Positions 44,107 to 49,504 of a DNA stretch of 64,000 nucleotides are shown here, one piece after another. Positions within the stretch are counted from its first letter, which is position 1. Every line of letters starts with the position of its first letter. Source of the stretch: Labilibaculum filiforme (lineage in GTDB: Bacteria > Bacteroidota > Bacteroidia > Bacteroidales > Marinifilaceae); the NCBI RefSeq assembly GCF_002843315.1, contig NZ_MVDD01000001.1, positions 186,001-250,000 of the forward strand, read 5' to 3'. The notes beneath the pieces were generated by a model, which was not told the DNA's origin, made no database searches, and worked only from the letters and a program-made list of their open reading frames with translations. A program made the translations under genes and the position numbers.

Positions 44107-46053
44107 ATGTGTAAACAAATCTATTCAGTTTTACTGCTATTATTTATCCATTTAATTTCCTTTTCAGCATATTCTTCAGACAAGATAAGTACGGAAGGTT
44201 CACCGCAACTGTCCATTAAATTTCCTAAAATAATTATTGCCGATATTGCAACAAAAATTTCAATTGTAACAGATGATATTAACCACAATTCTATTAAAGA
44301 TGATAGTGTTTGGATCGAAGTGAATAAGCAACCAATTTTGGCAAAATTAGATGAAGGAAAAATTATTTTTCATCATATTTTTCAAGGAAAAGAGAAAATT
44401 CAAATCTCTTTCCAAAGCAAATCTTTCACAAGTACAATTCACCCAATTCCTTTATGGCTTTCCATAATTCCACCATTAATAGCCATTCTTATGGCACTTT
44501 TGTTTAAGGAAGTTTTTTCGGCATTATTTGTAGGTCTATTTTCCGGAACCATACTCATCTATTCGTATCAGGAAGCTTCTATTTTTAGCGCCTTTTTTAA
44601 AGCCATATTTGCCATTTCAGATACCTATATTCTTCAATCGTTAGCTGACACTGGTCATATATCTATCATTCTATTTTCGATGCTAATAGGAGCAATGGTA
44701 AATTTAATTACTAAAAATGGAGGCATGCAGGGAATTGTCAATAAGCTATCCAAATTCGCCAATAGTCCGAGATCCGGTCAATTTGTAACATGGTTTTTAG
44801 GAGTTCTTATATTCTTTGATGATTACGCCAATACTTTAATTGTAGGAAATACGATGCGCCCGGTAACCGACAAATTAAAAATATCAAGAGAAAAATTAGC
44901 ATATATTGTCGATTCAACAGCGGCTCCAGTGGCATCAATTGCGATGATTACCACTTGGATTGGAATCGAGTTAAGCTACATTCAGTCTGCTACGGTTCAA
45001 ATTAATATCGATGAAAGTCCTTATAGTGTTTTTCTTCATTCCTTACCCACACGTTTCTATCCATTTTTCACCCTATTTTTTATTCTGATGCTAGTGCTTT
45101 TAAAAAAGGATTTTGGCCCAATGCTAAAGGCCGAAAAGAAATGCAGGCAAGCTTTAAACACTGAAAATTTATCGGAAAATGAGATCGTAGCATCAGAATT
45201 AAAAGAAGTTGAAATTGATAAAGGTACTCCTACCCGATGGTATAATGCAGGTATTCCTGTTCTGATTGTAATTTTTGGAACCTTTGCTGGCTTAGTTTAT
45301 ACTGGATGGGATGCAAATGTTTGGAACGACGAAAATCTAGCTTTTGGAAAAAAGCTATCTCATATTATTGGTGCTTCGGACTCCTACCTTGCTCTTTTGT
45401 GGTCGTCTCTGTCGGCCGTTTTAGCAGCCTTAGCCCTTACGCTTAGTCAAAGAATACTAGGCCTTAGTAAAGCAGTAGAAGCCTTGGTATCTGGCTTTAA
45501 AACGATGTTAACAGCCATTCTTATTTTAGTTCTTGCATGGGCTTTAGCGGATATCACAAAAGATATGCACACAGCCGATTTTATTTCTAATTCACTAATT
45601 GCAAGTAATGTATCGCCCTATCTCTTACCATCTTTTACTTTTATTCTTTCTGCTTTAATTGCATTCTCGACTGGCTCTTCTTGGGGAACTATGGCCATCC
45701 TTTATCCACTAATATTACCAGCATCGTGGGCATTGTGCCATGCTACTGGAATGAGTGATTTAGATAGTATGAATATTTTCTACATTACCGTTTCTGCAAT
45801 ATTAGCAGGCTCTGTTTTAGGGGATCATTGCTCCCCAATTTCCGACACCACTATTCTTAGTTCATTAGCAAGTTCCTGTAACCATATTGAACATGTACGC
45901 ACGCAACTACCTTATGCCTTAACTGTTGGAGGCGTTTCTGTTTTTGCTGGTTTAATTCCCGCAGCTTACGGAGTTTCTTCCTGGATTATAATTCCTGTTG
46001 GATTTATATTTCTTTTTTTAATTGTAAAATATATTGGAAAAACAGCAGAATAA
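44107..46053 (+). CDS. nhaC: NhaC-type Na+/H+ antiporter with N-terminal extracytoplasmic domain
   Basis: A 648-residue protein. The last 530 residues are an NhaC-family antiporter with about 12 membrane helices (PPLIAILMALLFKEVFSALFVGLFSGT, ITKNGGMQGIV, FFDDYANTLIVGNTMRPV, SAILAGSVLGDHCSPISDTTILSS). Unusually, it starts with a signal peptide (1-23) and about 90 residues of beta-rich sequence (SPQLSIKFPKIIIADIATKISI to ISFQSKSFTSTIHP), which would lie outside the membrane. The acidic pair DD in FFDDYANT fits cation binding. A hairpin (44082-44096) precedes the start codon. A second nhaC begins at 63.7 kb. Confidence 0.9.
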   Translation: MCKQIYSVLLLLFIHLISFSAYSSDKISTEGSPQLSIKFPKIIIADIATKISIVTDDINHNSIKDDSVWIEVNKQPILAKLDEGKIIFHHIFQGKEKIQISFQSKSFTSTIHPIPLWLSIIPPLIAILMALLFKEVFSALFVGLFSGTILIYSYQEASIFSAFFKAIFAISDTYILQSLADTGHISIILFSMLIGAMVNLITKNGGMQGIVNKLSKFANSPRSGQFVTWFLGVLIFFDDYANTLIVGNTMRPVTDKLKISREKLAYIVDSTAAPVASIAMITTWIGIELSYIQSATVQINIDESPYSVFLHSLPTRFYPFFTLFFILMLVLLKKDFGPMLKAEKKCRQALNTENLSENEIVASELKEVEIDKGTPTRWYNAGIPVLIVIFGTFAGLVYTGWDANVWNDENLAFGKKLSHIIGASDSYLALLWSSLSAVLAALALTLSQRILGLSKAVEALVSGFKTMLTAILILVLAWALADITKDMHTADFISNSLIASNVSPYLLPSFTFILSALIAFSTGSSWGTMAILYPLILPASWALCHATGMSDLDSMNIFYITVSAILAGSVLGDHCSPISDTTILSSLASSCNHIEHVRTQLPYALTVGGVSVFAGLIPAAYGVSSWIIIPVGFIFLFLIVKYIGKTAE

Positions 46054-46245
46054 AAACCCGACACATAATAGCAAATACTATTATATGTCGGGACCAAGAA
46101 TTTTGTCGATTTGCAACTATCACGTTTGACAATTATACCACTAACCACAATGTATCAAACCAACACTAACTAAAAATTATTTATCTAGAATAATACTTTC
46201 GATTAAAAGAATCTTGTGATAAACTCATTCTTTTACTACGAATAA
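46052..46245 (-). ncRNA. Putative structured RNA, unit D of a four-copy tandem family
   Basis: The most diverged copy. On the minus strand it has a 5' stem-loop (46205-46212 with 46227-46234, 8 bp), the 15-mer shared exactly with unit C (46164-46178), a conserved TGTGGT word, and a 3' hairpin of 15-bp arms (46057-46071 with 46078-46092) followed by five U residues. The one hairpin mismatch (C-A on the plus strand) is a G-U wobble on the minus strand, so transcription from the minus strand fits. The U-run overlaps the nhaC stop codon. 5' end uncertain. Confidence 0.45.
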
Positions 46246-46269
46246 ATATCTAATCATTATCAGAAAAAT

Positions 46270-46456
46270 TTAAAGTGAAGCCATCTCTTTCGAGATGGCT
46301 GTTACCCCATATATTTTGGAGCCCTTTTAGAATTGATTTGTTGTTTAGAATTACCACATTGCACCCAACAATCACTAACTAAAAATTCCGAGACTTTCCC
46401 CTATAGATTATCTCGTACAATTGTAAGACAACTAAAAAGTCAAAAAGGGTGACTGA
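46270..46456 (-). ncRNA. Putative structured RNA, unit C of the tandem family
   Basis: About 180 nt. Order on the minus strand: GTCACCC near 46447-46453, a 5' stem-loop (46389-46393 with 46411-46415, 5 bp, CGAGA/TCTCG, loop containing AGGGGA), the AATTTTTAGTTAGTG word (46373-46387), a 42-nt block identical to unit A (46319-46360), a second stem CTCCA/TGGGG (46317-46321 with 46305-46309; one U-G pair on the minus strand, C-A on the plus), and a perfect 9-bp 3' hairpin (46279-46300). Its U-run is weak. No ORF runs through it. Confidence 0.55.
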
Positions 46457-46555
46457 TTTTATAAAAAAAAACAATTAGCAAGCAATAATTTTATTGGTGT
46501 AATAATTTCAATGACTATTTTATTTTGAAATAGTTGTACTTCTGTTTTATCACAT

Positions 46556-46720
46556 AAAAAAACAGCCATTTCTATCGAAATGGCTGCTACTCCCATCTAT
46601 ATTGGAGTCTTTTAAAATTAATCATTAATTGAACTACCACACACAATTAATAATTACTTTCACAAATTCTGGCAAACCCATAATTCTGCCAGAAAAATTT
46701 TTCGAATATTTCGTTGGTTC
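46556..46720 (-). ncRNA. Putative structured RNA, unit B of the tandem family
   Basis: Minus strand: 5' stem-loop with 8-bp arms TTCTGGCA/TGCCAGAA (46687-46694 with 46667-46674), loop with ATGGGT, a GTGTGGTAGTTC word matching the family core, a second stem ACTCC/GGAGT (46604-46608 with 46589-46593), and a perfect 10-bp hairpin (46563-46572 with 46577-46586) followed directly by seven U residues: a classic intrinsic terminator. Stem sequences differ from units A and C but pair at the same places. 5' end uncertain. Confidence 0.5.
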
Positions 46721-46779
46721 TAATAAATTACTGACTACAATATTTAAAAAGGTTGCGTAAATGGAGCGACTTTCAGCTA

Positions 46780-46966
46780 AAAAGAAGCCATCTTTTTTAA
46801 GATGGCTATAACTCCAAATATTTTAGAGCCCTTTTAGAATTGATTTGTTGTTTAGAATTACCACATTTTATCCAACTTATCACTAACTAAAAAATATTCA
46901 AGAATCTCCCCTACAGATCCTCTTGAACACTACTATAACAGTTATCTATCAAAAATGGGTGACATC
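46780..46966 (-). ncRNA. Putative structured RNA, unit A of the tandem family
   Basis: About 187 nt. A -7-like element (TATTCTTG on the minus strand, 46972-46979, one mismatch to TAnnTTTG) would start transcription at the conserved GTCACCC (46958-46964). Then come a 5' stem-loop of TTCAAGA/TCTTGAA (46922-46928 with 46898-46904) and ATCT/AGAT inside, loop GTAGGGG; a TTTTTAGTTAGTG word; the 42-nt block shared with unit C (46827-46868); a second stem CTCTA/TGGAG (46825-46829 with 46813-46817); and a 9-bp hairpin (46787-46808) followed by a U-rich tail. No conserved ORF. Confidence 0.55.
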
Positions 46967-47007
46967 CTAGCAAGAATATTCTGATAATTAATAGATTTTA
47001 GCAAAAA

Positions 47008-47039
47008 AAAGACCGAATTGCTAACAATTCAGTCTTTTC
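47008..47039 (-). terminator. Terminator of the fused E1 gene
   Basis: Stem AAAAGAC-GAATTG with CAATTC-GTCTTTT, a 4-nt loop, one pair that is C-A on the plus strand but G-U on the minus strand, and a following run of U residues. It lies 20 nt after the E1 stop and just upstream of RNA unit A, so those RNAs would need their own promoter or read-through. Confidence 0.85.
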
Positions 47040-47059
47040 TATTCCAAAAATAAAATGTC

Positions 47060-49504
47060 TTAATTCGTATAAATAGATGGGAATTGTTGCGGATTGGATT
47101 CTCTCATAATATCATAAATGATTTCAAAAACATCTTCGGCATTGGGATTTGAAAAATAATCTCCATCGGTACCATATGCAGGTCGATGATCCTTGGCCGT
47201 AATTGTTTTTGGTTCCGAATCTAAATAGTAATAAGCATTCTGTTCTTCTAATACTTTCTGCATCATAAAAGCAGTTGCTCCACCAGGAACATCCTCATCG
47301 AAAAATACAACTCGATTGGTTTTCTTTATCGATTCTAAAATTCGATTGTTAATATCGAATGGCAATAAAGTCTGAACATCAATTAGTTCCACAGAGATAT
47401 TAAAATCTCTTAATTGTTTCACCGCATCTTCGGCAATTCGAACACAAGAACCATAGGTTACCAAAGTAATATCCGAACCTTCCTCTAACACTTCAGGAAT
47501 TCCTAATGGAGTATTAAATTCGCCTAAATTATCCGGCATTTTTTCCTTCAATCGGTATCCATTTAAAGGTTCAATAACTAGTGCAGGTTCATCCGATTTT
47601 AAAAGTGTATTATAGAAACCTGCTGCTTTTGTCATATCCCTTGGCACACATACATGAATACCGCGAATAGAGTTAATCACCATACTTAAAGGCGAGCCCG
47701 AATGCCAGATACCCTCCAATCGATGCCCACGGGTACGAATAATTACCGGCGCTTTTTGTCCTCCTTTGGTTCTGTACTGTAAGGTTGCCAAATCATCACT
47801 CATGGTTTGTAATGCATACAATAAATAATCGAAATATTGAATTTCTGCTATTGGTCGAAGTCCTCTTAGTGCCAAACCTATTCCTTGTCCTAAAATAGTA
47901 GCCTCTCTAATTCCTGTATCTGTAACCCGAAGCTCTCCATACTTCTGTTGCATTCCTTCTAAACTTTGGTTCACACCACCAATAAAGCCAGTATCTTCAC
48001 CAAAAGTTAAAAGCAAGGGATATTTACTAAACAGTTTATCGAAATTATCACGAAGCACCTCACGTCCGTTTACAATTTTCGATTCTTCGGAATAAATAGG
48101 GGCAATCGTTTTGATGTTTTGCACACTTAAATCGGTCTCGCTGTACAAATGACTACTGTAACGCTCATGATTCTCGTTCAGAGAATTTTTAAGCCATAGC
48201 TGCAACTGCGACTTTAATGGTTTAAAACTTTCGCACGAGCTACAAATAAAACGTAATATTTTCTTTGCCGCGGTAAAGTTATCCTTTCGAACCGGGTGAA
48301 TAATCTTTTTTAGATCGCTTACTATTTTATCGATTCGATCGGTTTTCTTGCAATCGCAACCTGAATTTTTCACCAATTCGATCAAAGCGTCTCTTTCTTT
48401 TAATATTGGCTCGGAAAACGACTTCCAAGCCGCTTTTCTGGAATCTTTTACTTCTTGAAGTGCTGCTTTTTCAATCTCATCTAAGTATTCTTCTGTTGTT
48501 AACTCCATCGAAAGAATCCACTCTCTCATTTTTCGGATCGGATCGTATTCATCTTCCCAATCGAGGCGCTCCTTTGTTTTGTACCGTTCATGAGAACCCG
48601 AAGTAGAGTGTCCCAGTGGCTGTGTCATCTCGCTAACATGAAAAAGTACAGGAACATGATTCTTTCTGCAAAGTTCGACTCCTTCCATATACATTTTACA
48701 AAGCGTAGGATAATCCCAGCCCTTTGCCTTATAAATTAGGTAACCTTCGCCATTTTCATCTTTTTCGAAGCCCTTCAGAACCTCTGATATATTCGACTTC
48801 GTGGTTTGAAATTTATTCGGAACAGAAATTCCCCAACCATCATCCCAAACGCTCATTGCCATAGGAACTTGCAAAACTCCTGCAGCATTAATTGTTTCCC
48901 AAAAATGCCCTTCGGAAGTACTAGAATCCCCAATGGTACCAAAAGCTACCTCGTTTCCTTTATCGGAAAATTCTGAATAGGAATGCAATTCATTATTTTG
49001 TCTGAAAATTTTCGACGCATAAGCTAACCCAAGTAATCTAGGCATTTGACCTGCCGTAGGAGAAATATCTGCGGAAGAATTTTTTTGGTTTAGTAAATTT
49101 TTCCAGCTTCCATCCTCATTTAAACTTCGGGATGCGTAATGGTTATTCATTAATCGCCCGCCGTTACCCGGATTTTTATCTAGTCGGGTTTCCCCAAACA
49201 ATTGAGCAAAAAATTCCTCGCTCGATAACATGCCTGAGGCCAGCATAAAAGTCTGATCACGATAATATCCCGAACGCCAATCCCCATTTTTATAAGCTTT
49301 CGCCATAGCAATCTGCGCAACTTCTTTTCCATCACCAAATATTCCAAACTTCGCCTTCCCTGTTAATACTTCTTTTCGCCCCCAGATACTCAGTTGGCGA
49401 CTAAGATTGGCAATACGATAATCTTCAAGTACTTCTGATGTAAAATCGTTGAATGACAAATTCTCTTTTTTTGCCTCCATATCTTCTTTTACTATTTCTG
49501 ACAT
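47060..49504 (-). CDS. 2-oxoacid dehydrogenase E1, alpha-beta fusion (branched-chain type)
   Basis: An 814-residue fusion of the alpha (about 30-450) and beta (about 480-800) subunits of a thiamine-diphosphate E1. Alpha part: TPP/Mg motif GDSSTSEGHFWETIN, followed by SVWDDGWGISVPN. Beta part: TFGEDTGFIGGVNQSLEGM, GIREATILGQGIGLALRG, and ITLVTYGSCVRIAEDAV. E1 decarboxylates branched-chain or related 2-oxoacids and loads E2 lipoyl groups; the E2 at 30-31.5 kb is a candidate partner. The fused form is usual in Bacteroidota. The exact substrate is inferred. Confidence 0.9.
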   Translation of the reverse strand: MSEIVKEDMEAKKENLSFNDFTSEVLEDYRIANLSRQLSIWGRKEVLTGKAKFGIFGDGKEVAQIAMAKAYKNGDWRSGYYRDQTFMLASGMLSSEEFFAQLFGETRLDKNPGNGGRLMNNHYASRSLNEDGSWKNLLNQKNSSADISPTAGQMPRLLGLAYASKIFRQNNELHSYSEFSDKGNEVAFGTIGDSSTSEGHFWETINAAGVLQVPMAMSVWDDGWGISVPNKFQTTKSNISEVLKGFEKDENGEGYLIYKAKGWDYPTLCKMYMEGVELCRKNHVPVLFHVSEMTQPLGHSTSGSHERYKTKERLDWEDEYDPIRKMREWILSMELTTEEYLDEIEKAALQEVKDSRKAAWKSFSEPILKERDALIELVKNSGCDCKKTDRIDKIVSDLKKIIHPVRKDNFTAAKKILRFICSSCESFKPLKSQLQLWLKNSLNENHERYSSHLYSETDLSVQNIKTIAPIYSEESKIVNGREVLRDNFDKLFSKYPLLLTFGEDTGFIGGVNQSLEGMQQKYGELRVTDTGIREATILGQGIGLALRGLRPIAEIQYFDYLLYALQTMSDDLATLQYRTKGGQKAPVIIRTRGHRLEGIWHSGSPLSMVINSIRGIHVCVPRDMTKAAGFYNTLLKSDEPALVIEPLNGYRLKEKMPDNLGEFNTPLGIPEVLEEGSDITLVTYGSCVRIAEDAVKQLRDFNISVELIDVQTLLPFDINNRILESIKKTNRVVFFDEDVPGGATAFMMQKVLEEQNAYYYLDSEPKTITAKDHRPAYGTDGDYFSNPNAEDVFEIIYDIMRESNPQQFPSIYTN

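Follow-up and report, generated by a model that had tools for sequence, protein, structure and literature searches.

A tandem family of structured RNAs in Labilibaculum filiforme and its possible link to a FecI/FecR-type sigma factor

Introduction

What are the four related structured RNA units that follow one another in an intergenic gap of Labilibaculum filiforme, and from which start signal would they be read? The gap belongs to a stretch of 64,000 nucleotides (nt) of this genome, here called the window, and lies between a 2-oxoacid dehydrogenase E1 gene on the minus strand and a PF03553 antiporter gene on the plus strand; it holds all four units, named A, B, C and D, on the minus strand of 46052-46966. 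An earlier note, made from the sequence letters, had proposed at this place a multicopy small RNA (sRNA) family or a tandem regulatory element and was right in substance, apart from a 5' stem wrongly assigned to unit D. The units constitute a family of structured, separately terminated RNAs whose structure, strand and terminators are established by computation and which is absent from Rfam. The promoters of A and C are alike the fecR promoter of an extracytoplasmic function (ECF) sigma factor of the FecI/FecR type, here called sigmaX; this promoter and the link to the sigma factor are added by the present analysis and were absent from the earlier note. The preferred reading, to which a probability of roughly 60% is given, is that the units are trans-acting sibling sRNAs, in tandem and separately terminated, which form the RNA arm of the FecI/FecR-type sigma circuit with a logic like that of sigma-E.

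In Escherichia coli, sigma-E, an ECF sigma factor with an envelope anti-sigma factor, directs the sRNAs MicA, RybB and MicL beside its protein regulon. Bacteroides thetaiotaomicron alone encodes 50 ECF sigma factors, and close to half of these lie within polysaccharide-utilisation loci (excerpt of PMC12596196). Such factors are mostly viewed as local switches of their own operon. If the preferred reading is true, an sRNA array that shares the promoter of this operon would give an ECF switch a post-transcriptional arm.

Structure and Strand of the RNA Family

The relatedness of the four units is confirmed by DNA comparison for A and C (87% identity over 99 nt; 82% over about 150 nt, E 4.5e-36) and for D and A (E 0.008), and by a covariance model for B; in particular, the model R1, built from A/C-type units without B units and without the dispersed copies of relatives, termed X, picks up window B at E 5.4e-7 and the X copies at 3e-18 to 1e-17. 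The 42-nt block described earlier as identical in A and C is present, as read by eye. The array consists of tandem genes and not of a regular repeat, since the spacing is irregular (507 from A to C, 209 from C to D).

The anatomy of A and C was drawn by hand on an alignment of 12 A/C units of the genus (A4) and comprises a hairpin around the words UCUAUAGGGGA (P1), a UUUUUAG-UUAG linker, a long stem with the loop words AUGUGGUAAUU (P2), a third stem GCUCC/GGGGU (P3) and a terminator hairpin. Of the 293 cells of A4, 96.9% are paired, and both sides change in 4 of the 27 pairs; in a model-fitted alignment of 32 units, 31 of them distinct (A6), both sides change in 14 of 27 pairs and all 7 P1 pairs vary on both sides. 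Because a model-fitted alignment is biased towards its own structure, the two-sided compensatory cells of A6 are quoted with their controls: 72, compared to 17.3 (standard deviation 3.1) in shuffled alignments and 8 to 18 in slid ones. Covariation had been claimed from the four paralogues, which cannot prove it; the 32 homologous units do. A previous MAFFT alignment of 21 units, in which B and X were mis-aligned and the RNAalifold consensus was weak, was replaced by A4 and A6.

The 742 cells of A6 include 611 Watson-Crick pairs, 74 G-U and 12 C-A; the excess of G-U over C-A, together with the promoters, establishes the minus strand as the RNA strand, in agreement with the polarity deduced before. 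Folding energy alone cannot fix the strand, since both strands fold with similar z-scores (minus -4.0 to -7.4 and plus -3.5 to -7.0 over five stretches), even if the minus strand is lower in energy in every pair of stretches; for the stretch 46300-46426 the z-scores are -2.6 (minus) and -0.9 (plus).

In unit D the linker, P2 and the UGUGGU loop are retained, the terminator is its own, and the third stem is missing. The earlier note had drawn a 5' stem in every unit, which does not hold for D: there is no homologue of this stem, and the AAAAGAAT stem, which is not conserved, occupies the position of the D promoter of most relatives. The outer stem of D pairs in 99.2% of 121 cells with hardly any covariation, and the covariation of D as a whole is weak (one two-sided pair; 54 of 500 shuffles equally good). 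The 3' hairpins reported earlier stand in the sense that a terminator-like hairpin closes every unit, with a poor T-run in C.

In the B units of four relatives' loci (L022, L024, L025, L027) there seems, by eye, to be one additional 5' hairpin, its arms changing yet remaining paired.

ECF-Type Promoters and the SigmaX Operon

Units A and C are preceded by GTCACC, with TGT 23 nt after its first base and the start of P1 13 nt later. In a flavobacterium, a CGT box at -10 is taken as a mark of ECF promoters (excerpt of PMC9723704). The motif was looked for within 70 nt of 56 units in 23 loci, excluding the duplicate L261 573-691 and the cross-hits of R3, a model built from D units only. It is found in 38 of the 56 units; the controls have it in 130 of 11200 random stretches, among which there may be true sites, and in 7 of 11200 shuffles. 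As the units are related, they are not 56 independent events. The motif is present in A units (8/8), C units (5/6), first Marinifilum units (7/8), second units (7/7) and D units (11/16) and missing in the first unit of g193 (0/1) and the G327 unit (0/1), and its position is -36/-37 in A, C and Marinifilum units and -40 to -42 in D. Near misses are ACCACC in four Labilibaculum D units and TTCATC in one C; window D is a clear miss.

SigmaX is encoded by a FecI/FecR-type ECF sigma gene (G000:C7:187070-187621, 184 amino acids (aa), TIGR02985) downstream of which, in the genome under study, lie the genes of FecR, SusC, SusD, a TIGR04549 lipoprotein and a DUF4302 protein. The STN domain is the part that contacts FecR in such systems, and in this SusC it is below the cut-off (25.5 of 28.4 bits). 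Nearly the same promoter as that of A and C lies between sigmaX and fecR in 20 of 20 loci. Among the 56 genomes of the family, 16 have a sigmaX orthologue at 68% identity or more and all 16 have the RNA. The absence of an ECF promoter from the unit of G327, a genome with the RNA and without a close orthologue, was counted for the sigmaX link.

Two patterns were searched in the own genome. TGTCACC-N13-20-TGTYWTA gives 3 matches, all of one length (control 2). GTMACC-N16/17-YGTYWTA gives 5, corresponding to A, C, the sigmaX-fecR gap, a 71-aa open reading frame (ORF) and one site without a T-tract. A stricter pattern gives 67 matches in 33 of the 56 family genomes, with 20 in the reversed control. 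At 15 of the other loci with this pattern a gene with a FecR or ECF-sigma domain stands behind the motif in 8; the remaining 7 are one sRNA unit, L228, in which no ATG frame was found, and five loci without such a gene. The motif ahead of other FecR and ECF-sigma genes suggests an ECF promoter class common to more than one sigma factor.

If an ECF-dependent sRNA is described as having an ECF-type promoter, at a fixed distance, in common with the operon of the sigma factor, A and C would belong to this kind and window B and D would not.

Some side observations concern these promoters. In the sigma-fecR gaps of L191-L197, L201, L203-L205, L207, L209 and L210 a hairpin with a T-run behind it has, by eye, the fecR -35 box as its 3' arm; the terminator of the sigma gene and the fecR promoter thus seem to share DNA. 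The same promoter type precedes a small membrane-protein-like ORF in two genera (G000:C7:248085-248115, L251, the 71-aa ORF mentioned above; G340:C27:243442, L260). In L257, L258 and L259 (G329, G330, G333), near 1650, it stands before a different structured RNA, about 95 nt in length, whose terminator is strong; two of these have z-scores of -5.5 and -3.2, they are not matched by the array models, and they may represent a second kind of sRNA in the regulon. In L022 and L024-L028 a palindrome, TGAGATTATTCTCA or close to it, lies directly upstream of the A promoter and is a possible operator; it is degenerate in the window.

Distribution among Relatives

A search of the genus at the DNA level matches 8 of 9 genomes, the ninth being 63% complete. 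The covariance-model search proposed by the earlier note finds A/B/C-type relatives with R1 in 18 of 56 family genomes and 6 of 17 genera; a second model, R2, matches 19 of the 56, the extra one at E 0.024, and R3 matches 18, one doubtful (E 0.015) and G327 not among them. With a limit of E 0.05, R3 has 39 matches, spread over 23 loci: 16 are D units and 23 are A, C, X, first Marinifilum-type or G327 units (22 distinct, as L261 repeats L094). Unit C of the window is one of these 23 (E 0.035), whereas the window's A and B are not matched. In draws at the order level, made with stricter filters and holding few family members, the own genome is the sole match (1/295 with R1, 1/393 with R2).

The neighbourhoods of E1 genes were searched in 31 of 80 listed loci, plus 13 others. 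Of the 31, 16 (L089-L103, L106) go under the names Marinifilaceae, Labilibaculum, Marinifilum or Ancylomarina, and 12 of these have units at E 0.0014 or better; none were matched in L099-L102 and in the remaining 15 of those 31. The same gap beside E1 contains three units in Marinifilum loci, for example L097 and L103, and in L106 and L261 the first unit is several kb away from the others. Labilibaculum has been reclassified as Marinifilum (excerpt of PMC12325347).

Dispersed X copies occur in G002, G003 and G008, as well as in G340 and G341, and the dispersed copies of L031, L036, L038 and L086 have a non-homologous terminator. The copies recombine, as deduced from a chimera in G008 (L027 1500-1650) that joins a B-type 5' half to a C-type 3' half. 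The X copies of L031, L036, L038 and L086 are without the GTCACC box and have an inverted repeat, TGTTAGACAAT ... ATTGTCTAACA or close to it, at the promoter position, perhaps for another sigma factor.

Comparison with Known RNA Classes

The search in Rfam 15 (4227 models), which the earlier note had called for, gives no match at or above the gathering score in the whole window; the 22 matches up to E 10 in 45500-47500 are all below gathering, and 11 relatives' loci have none up to E 0.01. Three known classes were rejected on this basis. A GibS/FopS-type RNA reaches 24 of the 115 bits needed for GibS (E 1.5), with no other such name among the matches listed; no 6S family appears up to E 10 in 45500-47500; and the CRISPR repeat CRISPR-DR53 scores 25.9 and 20.7 of 45 bits, falling on terminator hairpins. 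In the openly licensed literature of PubMed Central, by title and start of abstract, no description of these RNAs or of sRNAs of Labilibaculum or Marinifilum is among the matches listed. The alignments supplied here concern an RNA family missing from Rfam.

The FopS/GibS RNAs resemble the array in being a multicopy sRNA family of Bacteroidota (PMC11697453, in excerpt), and FopS of B. thetaiotaomicron represses susC mRNAs and is bound by RbpB. The same excerpt describes the FopS RNAs as dispersed, 65-70 nt long, with a single-stranded 5' part, one terminator hairpin and primary-sigma promoters; in contrast, the array RNAs are of about 150 nt, have three or more stems, are clustered and have ECF-type promoters. 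The PM2 sRNAs of B. thetaiotaomicron have non-canonical promoters, found before 13% of intergenic sRNA candidates (PMC7366714), and a TGTT box near -10 is tied to ECF sigma factors (PMC12596196), both papers being represented by excerpts. Non-canonical promoters of sRNAs are hence known in Bacteroidota; the sigma factor behind them is not assigned in the excerpt of PMC7366714, and the array promoter is likened to PM2 by description, not by letters. Sibling sRNA sets, in which several related sRNA genes stand side by side as in the array, are described for other phyla (excerpt of PMC4211561).

As to sigma-E with MicA, RybB and MicL, the likeness is that here too a sigma factor held by an anti-sigma factor would make sRNAs beside its protein regulon; the array RNAs differ in being unrelated to those sRNAs, in the FecI/FecR class with SusC, and in being tandem paralogues.

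Proposed Mechanism

Two of the four units share their start signal with the nutrient-import operon of the sigma factor. This suggests a second output of the envelope-sensing switch, a regulatory one made up of the RNAs. In the proposed sequence of events, the SusC transporter would signal through FecR and sigmaX would become active; sigmaX would transcribe A and C and, in relatives, most D units and the second Marinifilum unit, driving its own fecR-susC-susD operon and several sibling RNAs simultaneously. The sibling RNAs would display common exposed signals, namely the UUAGUUAG linker, the UGUGGUAA loop and, in Labilibaculum units, the UAGGGG of the P1 loop, and would modulate other mRNAs, which probably belong to competing genes of the envelope or of uptake. 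The transcription of the units, sigmaX and not a related sigma factor as their reader, their action in trans and the kind of target are predictions made from sequence.

A more specific version is put forward tentatively and is somewhat short of an even chance: the recognisable targets of sigmaX would be one SusCD import operon, the tiny membrane ORF and the sRNA array, the UAGGGG and UGUGGUAA loops would be the active parts, and a nutrient-sensing transporter would silence other genes while switching itself on. This would be a Bacteroidota counterpart of sigma-E/MicA/RybB with an RNA architecture not described before.

Several results weigh against the assignment of the array to sigmaX and to regulation in trans. 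Window B and D are without an ECF-type promoter, for D not even the promoter known from relatives' D units being recognisable, and the motif is missing in all B units (0/6) and X units (0/3). In the own genome GTMACC-N16/17-YGTYWTA is not enriched (5, compared to 8 and 8 in reversed controls), so that the positions of its matches are informative and their number is not. The same -35 type precedes other FecR and sigma genes; in fact, 2 of four further sigma matches of the own genome were examined and one sigma-fecR gap has a related sequence, the other none. Together with the -35 type found elsewhere, this means that a sibling sigma factor could read the A and C promoters. In four g185 genomes sigmaX is present at 59-62% and no RNA was detected, and in G004 and G327 the RNA occurs with no close sigmaX orthologue. 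The co-occurrence of sigmaX and RNA is confounded by common descent. Finally, no conserved target was found by duplex scan or seed complements: the four units were paired with 66 start regions, and the duplex energies, calculated without an accessibility term, give no trusted outlier; of the exact complements of the seeds that occur in the window and in the sigmaX operon, one in the start region of the antiporter has no counterpart in the relatives compared, and CCCTA, close to the start of sigmaX, lacks conservation across 20 loci.

Alternative Explanations

A different function for the same exposed motifs is protein titration, in which UAGGGG and UUAGUUAG would bind, as single-stranded motifs, an RNA-binding protein, for example one of the RbpB kind with an RNA recognition motif (RRM), and the array would be a sponge that may still be driven by sigmaX. 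RRM proteins of the hnRNP A1 kind prefer UAGGG, the loop words are kept while the stems change, and the second unit of g193 and Marinifilum has UAGGGG two times, once in the P1 loop and once in the terminator loop. In B. thetaiotaomicron, multicopy sRNAs are bound by RbpB (excerpt of PMC11697453). This explanation is considered unlikely; against it, the first Marinifilum units carry UUAGUGGG or similar words instead of UAGGGG.

The units could also be sRNAs of the primary sigma factor, with the GTCACC/TGT boxes due to chance or ancestral likeness. B and X units are without ECF boxes, and the G327 unit has by eye an upstream TAGATTTG box that resembles the primary-sigma consensus TAnnTTTG (PMC7366714, in excerpt). 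The fixed spacing and position of the boxes in 38 of 56 units and the near identity of the A/C promoters to the sigmaX-fecR promoter make this improbable.

Cis-acting leaders or attenuators of a following gene, the tandem regulatory element of the earlier note, are disfavoured and regarded as very improbable. The exception in their favour is unit C, directly upstream of a GNAT acetyltransferase gene in L022 and some relatives, as is the second unit in L255. In the window the array is followed by the convergent antiporter gene, with no same-strand gene in between; A and B have further units behind them, each unit is closed by its hairpin, and at the dispersed copy of L038 no same-strand gene is seen by eye a short way downstream. 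In contrast, the multicopy sRNA family of the earlier note gains support from covariation, terminators, A/C promoters, dispersed copies and the lack, in the window, of a same-strand gene downstream. A repeat or mobile element with structure and no RNA function, to which tandem and dispersed copies and the recombination seen in G008 (L027) could be ascribed, is highly implausible in view of the covariation, strand polarity, conserved loops and promoters, the same site beside E1 in Labilibaculum and Marinifilum, and the lack of matches in plasmids and phages (unit C as query) or viral contigs (one pattern).

Coordinates and Flanking Genes

Table 1. Units, promoters and flanking genes of the array (positions in the window).
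Feature	Position	Strand	Basis
ECF-type promoter of unit A (TGTCACCC...CTGTTATA)	46934..46964	-	motif upstream of P1
Unit A RNA	46778..46927	-	P1 hairpin from 46927, P2, P3, terminator hairpin 46786-46807, T-run; 5' end predicted from promoter, 3' end from hairpin; covariance-model match 46804-46927
Unit B RNA	46555..46694	-	model match 46582-46694; terminator hairpin about 46563-46586, T-run; 5' end 46694 putative; ECF-type promoter looked for upstream, not found
ECF-type promoter of unit C (GTCACCC...TTGTCTTA)	46424..46453	-	motif upstream of P1
Unit C RNA	46266..46417	-	model match 46297-46417; terminator-like hairpin 46279-46300, poor T-run
Unit D RNA	46052..46175	-	conserved core 46098-46175, without P1 and P3; terminator hairpin 46057-46092, T-run
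PF03553 Na+/H+ antiporter family gene	44107..46053	+	domain match; convergent with the units
Fused 2-oxoacid dehydrogenase E1 gene (alpha and beta parts)	47060..49504	-	upstream of unit A, same strand

The GNAT gene precedes D in some relatives (L022 979-1464, L255 1944-2426) and is missing from the corresponding place in the window (46180-46262). The antiporter scores below the NhaC equivalog cut-off. Among the matches listed, the closest E1 genes are those of a Marinifilaceae metagenome-assembled genome and of Labilibaculum sp. K2S, with 93% each.

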